Source: Parvibaculum sp.
GTDB taxonomy: Bacteria; Pseudomonadota; Alphaproteobacteria; Parvibaculales; Parvibaculaceae
Assembly (NCBI GenBank): GCA_019635975.1
Contig: JAHBYM010000011.1
Coordinates: forward strand, 1-38,740
Direction of reading: 5' to 3'
Length of the DNA: 38,740 nucleotides
This document shows, piece by piece, positions 17,526-35,766 of this stretch; the first letter of the stretch is position 1; every line of letters begins with the position of its first letter. The notes under the pieces are model-generated. The model saw only the letters and a program-made list of their open reading frames with translations, ran no database searches and had not been told where the DNA came from. The position numbers and the translations under genes were made by a program.

Positions 17526-20231
17526 TCAGAAGGCGTAGGAGATGTTGGCCGACACGAAGTCCTGGTCCACGTTGCCCGCATACTTCTCGTTGCCGAAGAA
17601 GTTGGTGTAGGACACGCCACCGCGCCAGTTGCCGAGATAGTTGCCGTTGAGCTGGAGGCTCACCGACTTGGCGCCCTGACGGTAGTTGCCCAGCGGCGCA
17701 GGGCTGTTGCCGTTGACACCATGGTTCCAGGCGATCGTCGGCTGCAACGCGATCGGCGTGCCGAAGACGTTGTTGTACTGGAGCTGGCCGAGCAGCACGT
17801 AACCCCAGGACACCGTCGTCGGGCGGCAGCCACTGCGGTTTGCGAGGCCGAGTGCACCGCCGAGCGGCAGATCGGTACCGCCCGAGGCGCAGATATTCTG
17901 CCAGCGGGGGCCCAGAAACCCTGCGGTCGGAGCATCCGGTGCATACATTGCGCCGACTTCCGTCACCAGGATACCGAGATCGGCGCCCGACATCCCGATC
18001 AACTGGTTCGAGTTGGTGAAGGTCGCCGTGGTGCCAACCTGGGCCGTGAATATTTTGGTACGTTCAAACCCACGAATGTCCGAGGTTACGGCACCGACGC
18101 CCAGATCGCCACAAGCGGCACCATATGTATCGACGACCCCCAAGGTCGGAAGCACGGCCTGTGCAGTCGTCGAACTCAGAAGCCCATCGATGATGCAGCC
18201 CGTACTGAGCGACGCAATGCTCAGCTGGTCGGTGTCGAGCTGCACCGGCTGGTTCGGCCGGTAGGTGATGTCGCCCTGAACGCCCCAGGTGCCCAGCGTC
18301 GTGTTGAAGCTGAACCCGTACATCCGGATGTCTTCCGGATACTCGAAATACAAACCAATTCCCGGGTTTGTCGTATCCAAGCCGAGAATGATCTCAGAAC
18401 CATCCACAGCCGCGAATCCCACACCGGGGACGTCCGCGGACTGTTGCGCCGTCAGCGCACAGTTTATAATTCCCGCAGCAAGGCCGGAGTTGGGTTGCAC
18501 GACGATGGTGCCCGGAGCCTCACCGTAGAACAGCGAGAGGTCCGTGCCGACAACGCCGCCCGCCGGATTAGGATTGATCGCCGTGCCCGCGAGGAACGCC
18601 AATGCAGGCGGCAAGGTGGGACCGAAAACAGTGCCATATGTCGCACCGGCCGCGAACGGGCTTTGGAGCGGACCTGTCGGAGCGTTTACGACAGGAAAGA
18701 GCCCCACACCGTTGTAGAAATCGTTCGCAATGGCTTCGGCCGTGGCGAAGATGTTATTGGGATCATTTATCGATTGATTCATCTGCACTGCCGATGCAAC
18801 CGTTGTGCCCAACGGAACACCGTAATACATGCCAGGCTGCACCGTCGGATCGGAGCCCGTCGCGATATTGCACCCGATATAAGCAAGAGGGCGCGACGTC
18901 GCGATGCTGGTCGTATTGCCGGTGCCGAGATAGGTGGTGAATTCAGCAGTCGCCGGATTGGCCCTTACACGCTGGCTGACAAGAGGCAGGCGTGAATGCG
19001 TGTTGGTGAAGTAGAAACCGAACTCGGTGTTGTTCAACGTTTCAGAGTACCAGCGCGCGGCCAGGCCGTACTGGCCCGAATCGCTGGCAAGGCGATCGCG
19101 GTCGCGGGCGACGATGGATGTATCGCCCATCGCGAGACGGAATGCTTCCGTGCTCCCGCCCGTCAAGGCTGTCCAGCCCCCGAGATTGGCGAGCGTCGTA
19201 TTGTACGAGTTGAAATCGACAGCATTCTGACCGCAATCGCGGAATTGCGCGATCGGATCGGCAGATCCCGCCCAGGCAGCGTCAAAAGCCATCGAGACAA
19301 GGGTCGGCGAGCTACAATTACGCAGCATGTTGCCGCCGGGACCACCGGTCAGGAACCCGAAGCCCTGATTGCCACCGAGACCGCCACCCGAACCGGTAAC
19401 ATCGGAAGTCGAGAAGGGTGTGCCCGGCCGGTCGAGCTGATACTCGGCCTGCTGGAGCTGATAGAAAGCTTCGATCGACAGGTTGTAGGGCAGGCCGAGC
19501 GAGGCGTTGATCGCCCAGATCGGCAACAGGCCTTCCTTCACTTCGGCGCCCGGACGCCGGAACGCGTTGACGTCGATCGGCATCGAACCGTTGACGCCAT
19601 TGAGGAGGAAGGTGCCTTCACCCCAGTTGATCACCTGCTTGCCGGCGCGCACCGTCAGCGGCAAGCCACCGACGTCGAAATTGCCGGCGACGTAGAGGTC
19701 GAGCAGGCGGATATCGCGCGCCGCGTCGGCCTTGCCGTCGACCAGGTTCGAACGGGCATAGGAGCTGTTCTGGTCCAGCACCGCGTCGTAGTAGGAATTG
19801 ATACGGCTGAAGAACGTGAAGTTCTCCCACTTGACCTGGATGTCGTTGGTCATCTTGAAGATGCCGCTGGTCAGGTCGCCGCGGTCGAAATTGAGGCGGC
19901 CGTCATCGGTGTTGATCGAGCCCGCAACGGGAGTCGCCCAGCCGTTAAGATCCGCGGCACCGGCGTTTGTCGCGTAGCCGAGCGTGTTGCCGCTGTTGAA
20001 CGCACCGCCAAATTCCGGCGTCACAGTTAAAGGCCCGCCATTCGACGTTGGCAGATACTTGTGGTTCATTTTCGCCGTCCGCATCGACACGCCGGCACTT
20101 ACTGTGGTGTCGAAAAACACCTGAACGCTGCCGAAATTATATTCGAGAGCGTTGGCCGTGCCGGCCGATGCGATCAGCATTGCCGCTGCGGTGCTGCCAA
20201 GCAACGCCGTGCGCAAGCTTCCTTTTCTCAT
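17526..20231 (-). CDS. DUF1302 outer-membrane beta-barrel protein, extended form
   Basis: A 901-residue protein starting at the ATG at 20231 with GAGGAGGAT upstream. The signal peptide MRKGSLRTALLGSTAAAMLI is cleaved near ANA-LEY. DUF1302 hallmarks are LLDLYVAGNFDVGGLPLTVR, AGKQVINWGEG, the PIDVNAFRRPGAEVKEG segment, YNLSIEAFYQLQ and the terminal NISYAF with final phenylalanine expected of a barrel. Many relatives are nearer 550-650 residues; the excess is a long, less GC-rich middle and loop region with eight cysteines. A porin-like role in uptake of hydrophobic substrates is inferred from barrel features and from the acyl-CoA operon downstream. Confidence 0.9.
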   Translation of the reverse strand: MRKGSLRTALLGSTAAAMLIASAGTANALEYNFGSVQVFFDTTVSAGVSMRTAKMNHKYLPTSNGGPLTVTPEFGGAFNSGNTLGYATNAGAADLNGWATPVAGSINTDDGRLNFDRGDLTSGIFKMTNDIQVKWENFTFFSRINSYYDAVLDQNSSYARSNLVDGKADAARDIRLLDLYVAGNFDVGGLPLTVRAGKQVINWGEGTFLLNGVNGSMPIDVNAFRRPGAEVKEGLLPIWAINASLGLPYNLSIEAFYQLQQAEYQLDRPGTPFSTSDVTGSGGGLGGNQGFGFLTGGPGGNMLRNCSSPTLVSMAFDAAWAGSADPIAQFRDCGQNAVDFNSYNTTLANLGGWTALTGGSTEAFRLAMGDTSIVARDRDRLASDSGQYGLAARWYSETLNNTEFGFYFTNTHSRLPLVSQRVRANPATAEFTTYLGTGNTTSIATSRPLAYIGCNIATGSDPTVQPGMYYGVPLGTTVASAVQMNQSINDPNNIFATAEAIANDFYNGVGLFPVVNAPTGPLQSPFAAGATYGTVFGPTLPPALAFLAGTAINPNPAGGVVGTDLSLFYGEAPGTIVVQPNSGLAAGIINCALTAQQSADVPGVGFAAVDGSEIILGLDTTNPGIGLYFEYPEDIRMYGFSFNTTLGTWGVQGDITYRPNQPVQLDTDQLSIASLSTGCIIDGLLSSTTAQAVLPTLGVVDTYGAACGDLGVGAVTSDIRGFERTKIFTAQVGTTATFTNSNQLIGMSGADLGILVTEVGAMYAPDAPTAGFLGPRWQNICASGGTDLPLGGALGLANRSGCRPTTVSWGYVLLGQLQYNNVFGTPIALQPTIAWNHGVNGNSPAPLGNYRQGAKSVSLQLNGNYLGNWRGGVSYTNFFGNEKYAGNVDQDFVSANISYAF

Positions 20232-20587
20232 GGAGCGATCCTCCTCGATCCTCGATGGCTTCACTAACTTTGCGGGCTGGATCGGGAGGTGGTGCGGAAC
20301 GTATTCCGACTGGTCCCCCCGGCCAGTCAGCATCCCTCAAGCGCTAGCCCACCTTCATTGGCCTTCCGAGTCAAGGCTGCGCGCGGGCGCTGGCGCGCCG
20401 ATGCGTAACATTGCTGCGCACTATTGCAATTATGACACGGCTGTAATGAGGATATGGGAGAGTGTTAAAAAATATTGCGGCGCACACTGATTATATGCGA
20501 CGCAGCATTTCAGAAAAAAGCGAATCAATCCGCGCGTTTGATGCGGGTGCCGGCCTTTAACTTTCCTTCCCACCCCCAATTTCGTCT
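20232..20587. other. Intergenic region upstream of DUF1302 gene, no gene seen
   Basis: About 350 bases without a supportable coding frame. The part nearest the DUF1302 start must hold its promoter. AT-rich stretches at about 20405-20530 (for example GTTAAAAAATATTG) are the likeliest promoter area, but no convincing -35/-10 pair was found. Confidence 0.5.
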
Positions 20588-33486: not shown

Positions 33487-34386
33487 ATGAGCCTGCAGCT
33501 CCCGTTGATCGACCTGCTGCTCCGCTGGCAGATCAAGCGCCGCTTCCGCAAGAACCCCGATGTGAACCTGCTGCGCCCGCTGATGCTGCAGATGGAGCCA
33601 AGGGCATCGAAACTGCCAACGGACATCGTTTGCGAACCGCTGGATCTCGGCGGCGTTCCGGCCGAGAAGCTTTCTCTAGCGGATAGCCGCTCCGACGCGG
33701 CCTTTCTCTACATTCATGGCGGCGGCTTCGTCGCCGGCTCGCCGCGCACGCATCGCCCGCTCACCTGGCGCCTGGCGAAAGACATTGGTGTGCCGGTCTA
33801 TGCGGTCGACTACCGGCTGGCGCCCGAACACCATTTCCCGGCAGGACTCGACGATTGCGTGACCGCCTACCGGGCGCTGCTGGAACGCGGACTGCCCGCC
33901 AAATCCCTTATTGTCGGCGGCGATTCGGCTGGCGGAAACCTGACGCTGGCGCTGGCGCTGCGTCTCAAGGCCGAGGGCCTGCCGATGCCGGCGGCGCTGG
34001 TCTGCCTGTCGCCCGCCACCGACACGACCGGCAGCGGGGCGTCGATGCGGTCCAACGCCGAGGCCGACGCGATATTCGTGCCGGAAATCATGGCCAGCCT
34101 GATGCCGGCCTATTGTCCGGGCGCAGAGGCGAAAAATCCCTATCTCTCACCGCTGTTCGGCGATGTATCCGGTTTTCCGCCGGTGCTCCTTCAGGTCGGC
34201 GAGCGTGAGATATTGAGGGACGACGCGGTCCGCATGGCCGCCGCGCTGAAAACCGCCGGCGCCGAGGCGACGCTCGAGGTCTGGCCGAAGGTCTGGCATG
34301 TCTGGCAGCTCAACGCCGACATGCTGCCCGAAGGCCGCGAGGCGATTACGCATATCGTGCGCTTCGCCCGCCAGCATCTCGGATGA
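33487..34386 (+). CDS. Alpha/beta hydrolase, hormone-sensitive lipase (HSL) family esterase
   Basis: A 299-residue esterase with the HSL oxyanion motif HGGG at 77-80, nucleophile S147 in GDSAGG, an acid in VGEREILRDD and the histidine in WHVWQ. AVDYRLAPEHHFPA is typical of the family. Expected to hydrolyse short- to medium-chain esters in the cytoplasm. The ATG at 33487 is preceded by AAAGGAA and lies 11 bases after tsaD, so they are probably cotranscribed. It separates tsaD from gpsA, which are close neighbours in many alphaproteobacteria. Confidence 0.93.
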   Translation: MSLQLPLIDLLLRWQIKRRFRKNPDVNLLRPLMLQMEPRASKLPTDIVCEPLDLGGVPAEKLSLADSRSDAAFLYIHGGGFVAGSPRTHRPLTWRLAKDIGVPVYAVDYRLAPEHHFPAGLDDCVTAYRALLERGLPAKSLIVGGDSAGGNLTLALALRLKAEGLPMPAALVCLSPATDTTGSGASMRSNAEADAIFVPEIMASLMPAYCPGAEAKNPYLSPLFGDVSGFPPVLLQVGEREILRDDAVRMAAALKTAGAEATLEVWPKVWHVWQLNADMLPEGREAITHIVRFARQHLG

Positions 34387-34489
34387 AAAAAGAACCCCGC
34401 CGCGGGGGAGGCGGCGGGGTCAAGCGACCCTTGGGGGGCAAGGGTCCTGGGATCGCCGGGCTCCCTGAGGGGGAGGGGGAGGAGCCCGG
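34385..34489 (-). ncRNA. Candidate RNA of three tandem hairpins with C-rich loops, ending in a terminator
   Basis: On the minus strand, in transcription order: a 9-bp stem (34481-34489/34456-34464) with a loop of mostly C (two CCCCC runs), an 8-bp stem (34439-34446/34426-34433) with a CCCCC loop, and a 10-bp stem (34411-34420/34394-34403) with loop CTCCCCC followed by TTCTTTTTT. All stems are perfect. The last is a clear Rho-independent terminator. The loops are complementary to Shine-Dalgarno-like GGGGGAG sequences, as in the CcsR or cuckoo small RNAs of Rhodobacter. It may be a 3'-derived regulatory RNA of the small genes upstream. Confidence 0.55.
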
Positions 34490-34498
34490 ACGGGGAAA

Positions 34499-34624
34499 TC
34501 AGACGATGGTGGCGACGCCCGAGGTCTGCACGATCAGGGCGAACGTGTAGGCCACAAGCAGCGCGGCGGCGGCTTTGGCGGCGACGCGCTCCACGAGGGG
34601 GGAGAAGTTCCGGTTCTGCGTCAT
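34499..34624 (-). CDS. Small 41-residue single-pass membrane protein
   Basis: The ATG at 34624 opens a frame of MTQNRNFSPLVERVAAK, a hydrophobic segment (AAAALLVAYTFALIV) and a short QTSGVATIV tail. Ribosome site is weak (GAAAGAAC). I do not recognise a family. Support comes from the membrane-protein pattern, the adjacent 34-residue gene of similar design on the same strand, and the terminator hairpins directly after its stop. Short length makes this uncertain. Confidence 0.55.
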   Translation of the reverse strand: MTQNRNFSPLVERVAAKAAAALLVAYTFALIVQTSGVATIV

Positions 34625-34684: not shown

Positions 34685-34789
34685 TCAGGCCGCGTACTGG
34701 GAGGCGATCTGAGCCAGGAAGACGAGCGAGTAACCGCCGACAGCGAGGGTGATGACGCGGTTGGTCAGCTTGCTGGAAATGTTGATCAT
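34685..34789 (-). CDS. Small 34-residue single-pass membrane protein
   Basis: The ATG at 34789 has a good AGGAG eight bases upstream. The product starts MINISSKLTNRVI and then has one hydrophobic segment, TLAVGGYSLVFLAQIAS, ending QYAA. No family recognised. It lies 60 bases upstream of the 41-residue gene and probably heads a two-gene small-protein transcript ending in the triple hairpin. Confidence 0.6.
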   Translation of the reverse strand: MINISSKLTNRVITLAVGGYSLVFLAQIASQYAA

Positions 34790-35052
34790 GGCTCTTGCTC
34801 CTGTGTTCCTTGCCGGCGGGTCGGGTCCGGTGTCCCGCTGACAGAGGGGAAATGGGAGCCCTCTTCCGAAAAACAATGAATGAAATAAAAAATATTCAAT
34901 CGTCAGGATTTATGTTGCTGCGGTGCAACAAATAACACCGTTCCAGCCTGTGTTTTGTTAACGAATTCAGTGTGATAGACGGCGCCACTGCAGCCTGGAC
35001 AGGCCGGCGCAATGAAATAAAAATAAAGCGTTGGGAAGTAGTTTGGAGAGAT
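34790..35052. promoter_or_regulatory. AT-rich intergenic region upstream of the small-protein genes
   Basis: No gene is seen. The stretch 34875-34975 is strikingly AT-rich for this window. It contains an inverted repeat TGTTGC/GCAACA (34913-34930, 6-base centre), which may be an operator. The promoter for the leftward small genes should lie here; no single -35/-10 pair stands out. The TetR gene's stop bounds it on the right. Confidence 0.4.
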
Positions 35053-35679
35053 TCAAGCTTCCGCGAGTTGCTTCAGCGGGTCGCAACAGGCGGCCCCGGC
35101 TTTCAATCCCGCGACGACGATTTGATAGACGCCTTCGAGTTCGCGCTCGAGCTTTTCAAGCGGCAGGCGCGTAAAAAGCTGCGGGTAGCTGAATTTCAGG
35201 GTAGCGGCCTGGATCATTTCGGCGGCAAATTCCGGATCGCTGACCTCGAATTCGCCGGACGCATTGCCGAGCTCGATGATCCGTGCAAGGACTTCGCGTT
35301 CCCGTTTCAGTCCCTCGTTGTGGAACTCTGGACGCTCGGCGGTGACGATCTGCGCCATCTCGACGATCTTCCGGTCCTCTTCGAGCTTGTGGAAAGTCTC
35401 GCGCAGATCCATGAAGAGAAAATCATGAAGGCGTTGCGACGCGGTGCGGCCGGGCATGGTCAGAATGCGCGCCAGATCGTCGGCGGTCTGCATCGACGCT
35501 TCGCGGCAGATCGCCTCGGCGATGTCGAGCTTGCCGGGAAAATAGCGGTAGAGATTGCCCGGCGACATTTCGCAATCGGCGGCGAGCTCGGCCATCGTCG
35601 TTTTGCTATAGCCGTAATGCGTGAAGCGCCGTTTGGCGGCCTGAATGATTTTTTCGTGCGTGGCATCGTGAGCGGTCAT
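35053..35679 (-). CDS. TetR family transcriptional regulator
   Basis: A 208-residue repressor-type protein. The N-terminal helix-turn-helix spans about residues 11-55, with FTHYGYSKTTMAELAADCEM and the recognition helix MSPGNLYRYFPGK. The C-terminal ligand domain (LRETFHKLEEDRKIVEMAQ...) resembles TetR_C regulators. The ATG at 35679 has no Shine-Dalgarno; a promoter places the transcript start at this ATG, suggesting a leaderless message. It is divergent from gpsA and convergent to nothing; the small genes lie downstream on the same strand. Targets unknown, but self-control via a nearby palindrome is likely. Confidence 0.9.
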   Translation of the reverse strand: MTAHDATHEKIIQAAKRRFTHYGYSKTTMAELAADCEMSPGNLYRYFPGKLDIAEAICREASMQTADDLARILTMPGRTASQRLHDFLFMDLRETFHKLEEDRKIVEMAQIVTAERPEFHNEGLKREREVLARIIELGNASGEFEVSDPEFAAEMIQAATLKFSYPQLFTRLPLEKLERELEGVYQIVVAGLKAGAACCDPLKQLAEA

Positions 35680-35686
35680 ACAAATG

Positions 35687-35714
35687 ATTGTAATGCGATC
35701 GAGTAAATAATCAA
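35687..35714 (-). promoter_or_regulatory. Promoter of the TetR gene, probably giving a leaderless transcript
   Basis: Minus-strand TTGATT (35709-35714), a 16-base spacer and TACAAT (35687-35692). Seven bases separate the -10 from the A of the ATG at 35679, so transcription should begin at or next to the start codon. Confidence 0.55.
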
Positions 35715-35725
35715 CGAACCGTTCA
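35711..35725. promoter_or_regulatory. Candidate TetR operator
   Basis: TCAACGAACCGTTCA is an imperfect palindrome (five of seven arm positions match) of the TGAACG/CGTTCA type used by several TetR-family proteins. It overlaps the -35 box of the TetR promoter and lies upstream of gpsA. Confidence 0.4.
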
Positions 35726-35766
35726 ATCGTTAGCGCCTGCAACAAAACGCAGGACGGAGGGCCCTG

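Follow-up and report, generated by a model that had tools for sequence, protein, structure and literature searches.

A conserved three-hairpin RNA with a C-rich loop follows two small membrane-protein genes in Parvibaculum and is probably regulatory

On the minus strand of a Parvibaculum sp. contig (JAHBYM010000011.1; the window, i.e., the whole stretch analyzed, comprises 38,740 nucleotides), three tandem hairpins follow two tiny open reading frames, which raises the question of whether they merely end an mRNA or constitute a regulatory RNA. A first-pass annotation, made from the letters of this DNA, had suggested a possible regulatory RNA resembling the stress-linked CcsR/cuckoo RNAs of Rhodobacter. 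The genome that contains the window is 3.26 Mb and 84% complete, and the locus is composed of the following features, listed by window position.

34386..34391, minus strand: terminator U-run, read from the sequence; T6 is invariant in the alignment. The stop codon of a convergent alpha/beta hydrolase gene adjoins this run.
34393..34421, minus strand: hairpin 3, with CUCCCCC as its loop; by the terminator pattern, the stem of an intrinsic terminator.
34426..34446, minus strand: hairpin 2, loop CCCCC in the window, variable among relatives.
34456..34489, minus strand: hairpin 1, with a 16-nt pyrimidine loop, UCCCCCUCCCCCUCAG; candidate target-binding loop.
34499..34624, minus strand: sp2, 41 amino acids, one predicted membrane helix, MTQNRNFSPLVERVAAKAAAALLVAYTFALIVQTSGVATIV, judged by eye.
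34688..34789, minus strand: sp1, 34 amino acids, one predicted membrane helix, MINISSKLTNRVITLAVGGYSLVFLAQIASQYAA, judged by eye.
34846..34900, minus strand: promoter-like block with the dyad TGAATATTTTTnnTTTyrTTCA, TTGTTTTTC and a CCTANAT-type -10; predicted transcript start.
34913..34930, minus strand: PhaR-type dyad TGTTGCACCGCAGCAACA, upstream of the promoter-like block, matching the consensus TGCRNYGCASMA.
35053..35679, minus strand: TetR-family regulator gene (PF00440 and PF17935), upstream of the operon and on the same strand.

The three perfect stems and the terminal T-run that had been described were located on the minus strand, with arms at 34394-34403/34411-34420 (10 bp, loop of 7), 34426-34433/34439-34446 (8 bp, loop of 5) and 34456-34464/34481-34489 (9 bp, loop of 16). 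Hairpin 1 begins 9 nt past the sp2 stop codon. The minus strand folded at -60.3 kcal/mol, compared to -42.7 +/- 3.3 for dinucleotide shuffles (z of -5.3, with 0 of 200 shuffles as good), and folding of the plus strand was less exceptional (z of -3.45). Hairpin 3 has 11 pairs, 9 of them GC, and is followed by CTTTTTT, as expected for an intrinsic terminator; the minus strand reads TTCTTTTTT directly after it. No direct-repeat family was found in the region, and none of the three hairpins is a copy of another. When the window was searched against Rfam 15 at the gathering threshold, two tRNAs were the only matches and the three-hairpin element was unmatched. A search for a plasmid origin gave no match.

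Such an arrangement might serve the sp1-sp2 mRNA in cis alone, as an elaborate terminator and stability element with no targets in trans, keeping 3' exonucleases off and insulating the convergent gene. Hairpin 3 is a canonical terminator, the hairpins lie directly 3' of the sp2 stop codon, and tandem hairpins are a common means of stabilizing 3' ends. We consider this explanation possible, on balance unlikely, in view of the conservation of loop 1 and the rarity of C-rich terminator loops described below.

The first-pass annotation had proposed a covariance search in related genomes, and had noted that conservation of the last hairpin only would indicate a plain terminator. A covariance model of the element, searched against the 27 genomes of the genus and relatives, recovered it in 24 of the Parvibaculum genomes. 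Two genomes from a second genus of the family also gave matches, with lower scores that were still clear. Each of the three hairpins is conserved and covaries; thus, a plain terminator is rejected as the whole story. The order TetR-sp1-sp2-RNA was seen in the loci read, with nearly all elements directly 3' of sp2, and in both second-genus genomes a TetR gene and two tiny ORFs precede the hairpins. The DNA past each sp2 stop codon contains all three hairpins, with differing stem sequences.

In an alignment of 26 loci, compensatory changes on both sides were found for 24 of 26 base pairs, in all three helices: 9 of 10 model pairs in hairpin 1 (where 96.2% of cells are paired), 5 of 5 in hairpin 2 and 10 of 11 in hairpin 3. 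Overall, 96.9% of cells were paired, versus 80.2% in shuffled versions and at most 53.6% when the partner was slid, in an alignment that leans towards structure because it was fitted to the covariance model; the gap to the slid versions and the stem replacements seen among loci (e.g., CCGGGCUCC, CCGGACUUC, CCGGGCCUU and GCCGCAGCUC) are beyond what model-fitting explains. Furthermore, G-U cells outnumbered A-C cells by 48 to 4 and, since an A-C cell is a G-U pair on the opposite strand, the minus strand is the RNA under selection. These results uphold the proposal of a conserved, structured minus-strand RNA located just past a pair of conserved genes for small membrane proteins. On inspection, the wider-class matches of the covariance model (L067-L070) and weak matches in three other genera (L084-L087; g3, g4 and g5) were rejected as ordinary terminators. 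In one locus (L054, G005:C315), the RNA is kept together with the end of sp2, and neither sp1 nor the PhaR dyad lies upstream; this is possibly a broken or chimeric contig.

The loops differ in what they conserve. CCCUCCC was found in loop 1 of all 18 distinct versions of the element while the stems vary, so that this motif is always exposed, in agreement with the anti-Shine-Dalgarno type of loop that had been described. Among 12 representative lineages, which were hand-picked and are not fully independent, CCUCCC was present in loop 1 of all 12, compared to 2.4 on average and 8 at most in 20,000 shuffles. Loop 3 is C-rich in all relatives, with a motif that differs from that of loop 1. The claim of C-runs in all three loops holds for the window; as a conserved property it fails for loop 2, which reads CUCGAA, CCAACU, GUAU or UUUCGG in relatives. 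In 800 kb of a complete relative (G014), only 1 of 150 terminator-like hairpins had a CCCC loop, and this one is the element itself, which rejects C-rich terminator loops as a habit of the genus. A separate scan of even stem-loop lengths, which did not pick up the element, agreed on the rarity of such loops. Protection in cis requires stems and no set loop sequence, so the fixation of CCCUCCC in loop 1 while its stem changes argues against a role in cis alone, as does the rarity of C-rich loops among terminators of the genus.

The two tiny upstream genes that had been described are real, since their proteins are conserved throughout the genus. Of the 27 genus genomes, 18 gave a sequence match to sp1; for sp2, 25 of 61 relatives matched at E<=0.1, including most members of the genus. 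Neither sp1 nor sp2 matched a Pfam family, and sp2 seems to be a distant paralogue of sp1. The RNA is linked to sp1-sp2 and not to the hydrolase gene on its other flank; linkage to the latter was rejected since the end of tsaD adjoins the terminator instead in two loci (L003 and L004). A similarly placed TetR gene is conserved in most loci of the genus and in the second genus.

To which known RNAs does the element compare? The CcsR1-4/cuckoo RNAs of the Rhodobacter sphaeroides CIN1 locus, which also contains ccaF1, derive from the 3' UTR of an mRNA for a small protein and consist of C-rich, anti-Shine-Dalgarno-like stem-loops with a terminal terminator. The element shares this placement, being located in the 3' region of sp2 and closed by an intrinsic terminator on the predicted transcript. 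Membership of this family, with RpoH-mediated stress induction, would fit the similar order of small protein gene, C-rich stem-loops and terminator (PMC10253847). However, the CcsR/cuckoo genes accompany DUF1127, whereas sp1 and sp2 are single-helix membrane proteins that are not DUF1127, and a search for DUF1127 (PF06568) found no match in the 84%-complete window genome while control matches were obtained in E. coli. Moreover, CcsR/cuckoo comprises four homologous RNAs and the Parvibaculum element three unlike hairpins that are not homologous repeats; CcsR/cuckoo is controlled by RpoHI/RpoHII; the promoter-like block of the Parvibaculum locus is compatible with this type of promoter and not diagnostic of it, and a PhaR-type dyad lies upstream. 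We regard membership as very improbable. The suggested kinship was not borne out, and the CcsR literature supports an analogy of layout only. Likewise, in place of the proposed link to stress, the upstream dyad would point to PhaR and polyhydroxybutyrate (PHB) metabolism.

Other families were similarly compared. The 6C RNA (B11; RF01066) of Actinobacteria also has C-rich hairpin loops, and gave no match at the three-hairpin element (cut-off of 47 bits); it is closer to a separate two-hairpin element (33.9 bits at L074, below this cut-off). The MmgR/alphaR8/SisA-D family (RF00519) shares an anti-Shine-Dalgarno-like pyrimidine core, UUUCCUCCCU, which is single-stranded beside a weak hairpin in alphaR8, whereas in Parvibaculum a strong hairpin presents it as its loop. 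The best of five loci scored 24.1 bits with this model (L063), under its cut-off of 41 bits, with none listed for the window locus, and a true mmgR was found elsewhere in the window genome (77.1 bits). The window locus scored 32.7 bits with anti-hemB (RF02837) and 24 bits with ar14 (RF02344), far under the cut-offs of 49.5 and 58.8 bits, respectively. Thus, CcsR/cuckoo, mmgR, 6C, anti-hemB and ar14 were rejected as identities, either on repeat features and DUF1127, as searched in the 84%-complete genome, or on scores under the cut-offs. No paper on small RNAs of Parvibaculum was found in the literature searched, and the element probably represents a type of small regulatory RNA that has been described in other organisms and is new for Parvibaculum.

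The two-hairpin element is itself conserved (G000:C24:7746-7827, equivalent to L071:1501-1582, with relatives in L072-L079). It consists of two hairpins, whose loops include CGCCCCCC and CUCCCCCC, and a T-run, is similar to 6C RNA at a score under the threshold, and lies 6 nt past a conserved ORF that was judged by eye to resemble a transglutaminase-like cysteine peptidase.

Upstream of sp1, a conserved block consisting of TGAATATTTTTnnTTTyrTTCATTGTTTTTC and, 13-14 bases on, CCTANAT (CCCATTT in the window) looks like a promoter with an operator. This block was present in 22 of the 23 loci listed, including both second-genus loci. Its TTG...CCTANAT pattern is compatible with, and not diagnostic of, the TTG/TAT elements of RpoHI/HII promoters (PMC10673084). 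A conserved dyad, AACGATTGAACGATTCGTT, lies ahead of tetR (window 35680-35740) and shares ACGATTGAA with the block ahead of sp1; it could reflect autoregulation and an operator common to the operon, and TetR may also control sp1-sp2.

The dyad further upstream contains, at 34916-34927, an exact match to the PhaR consensus TGCRNYGCASMA / YGCRNYGCR; it fits the consensus of Bradyrhizobium, TGCRNYGCASMA (PMC6201568), and likewise that of Sinorhizobium (PMC12542648). GTTGC-N6-GCAAC was found in 22 of 24 genus loci; of the other two, one is truncated and one is without the dyad, and it is absent from both second-genus loci. Only 2 such dyads occur in 800 kb of G014. The PhaR gene is present in 25 of 27 genus genomes and the PHB synthase gene phaC in all 27, and the window genome contains phasin genes, one of which is preceded by two PhaR-consensus sites. 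Control of the operon by PhaR is plausible on this evidence. Two adjacent PhaR-type sites were also observed at window 20470-20510, ahead of a long ORF on the minus strand (17526-20333), which resembles an outer-membrane protein of the DUF1302 type; its leader, CGAGGATCGAGGAGGATCGCTCCATG, is nearly invariant across the genus. A previously undescribed regulatory operon that responds to PHB, in which one PhaR-controlled transcript encodes a pair of single-helix mini-proteins and also contains the three-hairpin, anti-Shine-Dalgarno RNA, is a tentative proposal that we hold to be doubtful.

We hypothesized that the element is a 3'-UTR-derived anti-Shine-Dalgarno small RNA, free or attached to the mRNA, which pairs with ribosome-binding sites and is possibly linked to PHB, and we judge this reasonably likely. 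A regulatory RNA is suggested because the loop is constrained while the stems are free, because a terminator lies at the end, and because precedents exist: in Mycobacterium abscessus, either loop of B11/6C is able to repress a target whose 5' UTR contains a G tract (PMC10470900), and the C-rich element of the alphaR8 RNAs SisA-D acts on G-rich leaders (PMC12559287). Transcription would begin at the promoter ahead of sp1 and end at hairpin 3, so that a structured RNA of ~105-110 nt would form the 3' end of the sp1-sp2 mRNA, from which it may be processed or to which it may remain attached. Loop 1, with help from the C-rich loop of hairpin 3, would pair through CCCUCCC with purine-rich (GGAGG/GGGAGGG) ribosome-binding sites and block translation of other mRNAs, with hairpin 2 serving mainly as a structural spacer. 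Since its synthesis would depend on that of the sp1-sp2 mRNA, the RNA would appear whenever the upstream dyads, one of them PhaR-type, permit transcription, possibly during PHB accumulation.

The first-pass annotation had also called for a search of target ribosome sites. When 931 predicted starts in 800 kb of G014 were scanned for duplexes with the RNA, a DUF1302-type gene and other candidates emerged, with no convincing target among them; for the one candidate followed, strong pairing was not conserved in the relatives read. Mean duplex energies were -10.7 kcal/mol at ribosome-binding sites and -8.0 kcal/mol in stretches within genes, a modest preference that proves nothing because ribosome-binding sites pair with any anti-Shine-Dalgarno loop. 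The phasin leader contained AGGAG only, with no special complementarity to the RNA. Dispersed REP-like palindromes, ACCCTCCCC...GGGGAGGGT, were observed in the window genome (L088, L089, L090 and L091), and account for much of an excess of CCCTCCCC there (168 versus 81 for the reversed pattern).

Finally, the C-rich loops might bind a protein or a partner RNA and so titrate a regulator rather than block ribosomes. This sponge model, which we hold to be improbable, is consistent with a sequence constraint that falls on the loop, and has a precedent in Caulobacter, where CrfA sponges SisA-D, which carry UUUCCUCCCU (PMC12559287).

For the anti-Shine-Dalgarno RNA that we favor, the locus has wider implications. 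In alphaproteobacteria, such RNAs associated with tiny protein genes were previously linked to DUF1127; a like layout with unrelated membrane mini-proteins suggests that small proteins and C-loop RNAs may have been brought together more than once. MmgR has a promoter controlled by PhaR (AniA) and a role in PHB accumulation (PMC8401924), and the PhaR-type dyad offers a concrete, testable link of PHB storage to a second small RNA besides it. If the operon does respond to PHB, the carbon storage state would govern a translational repressor as well as a pair of envelope or granule proteins, in an arrangement that would add to the classical MmgR and not replace it.
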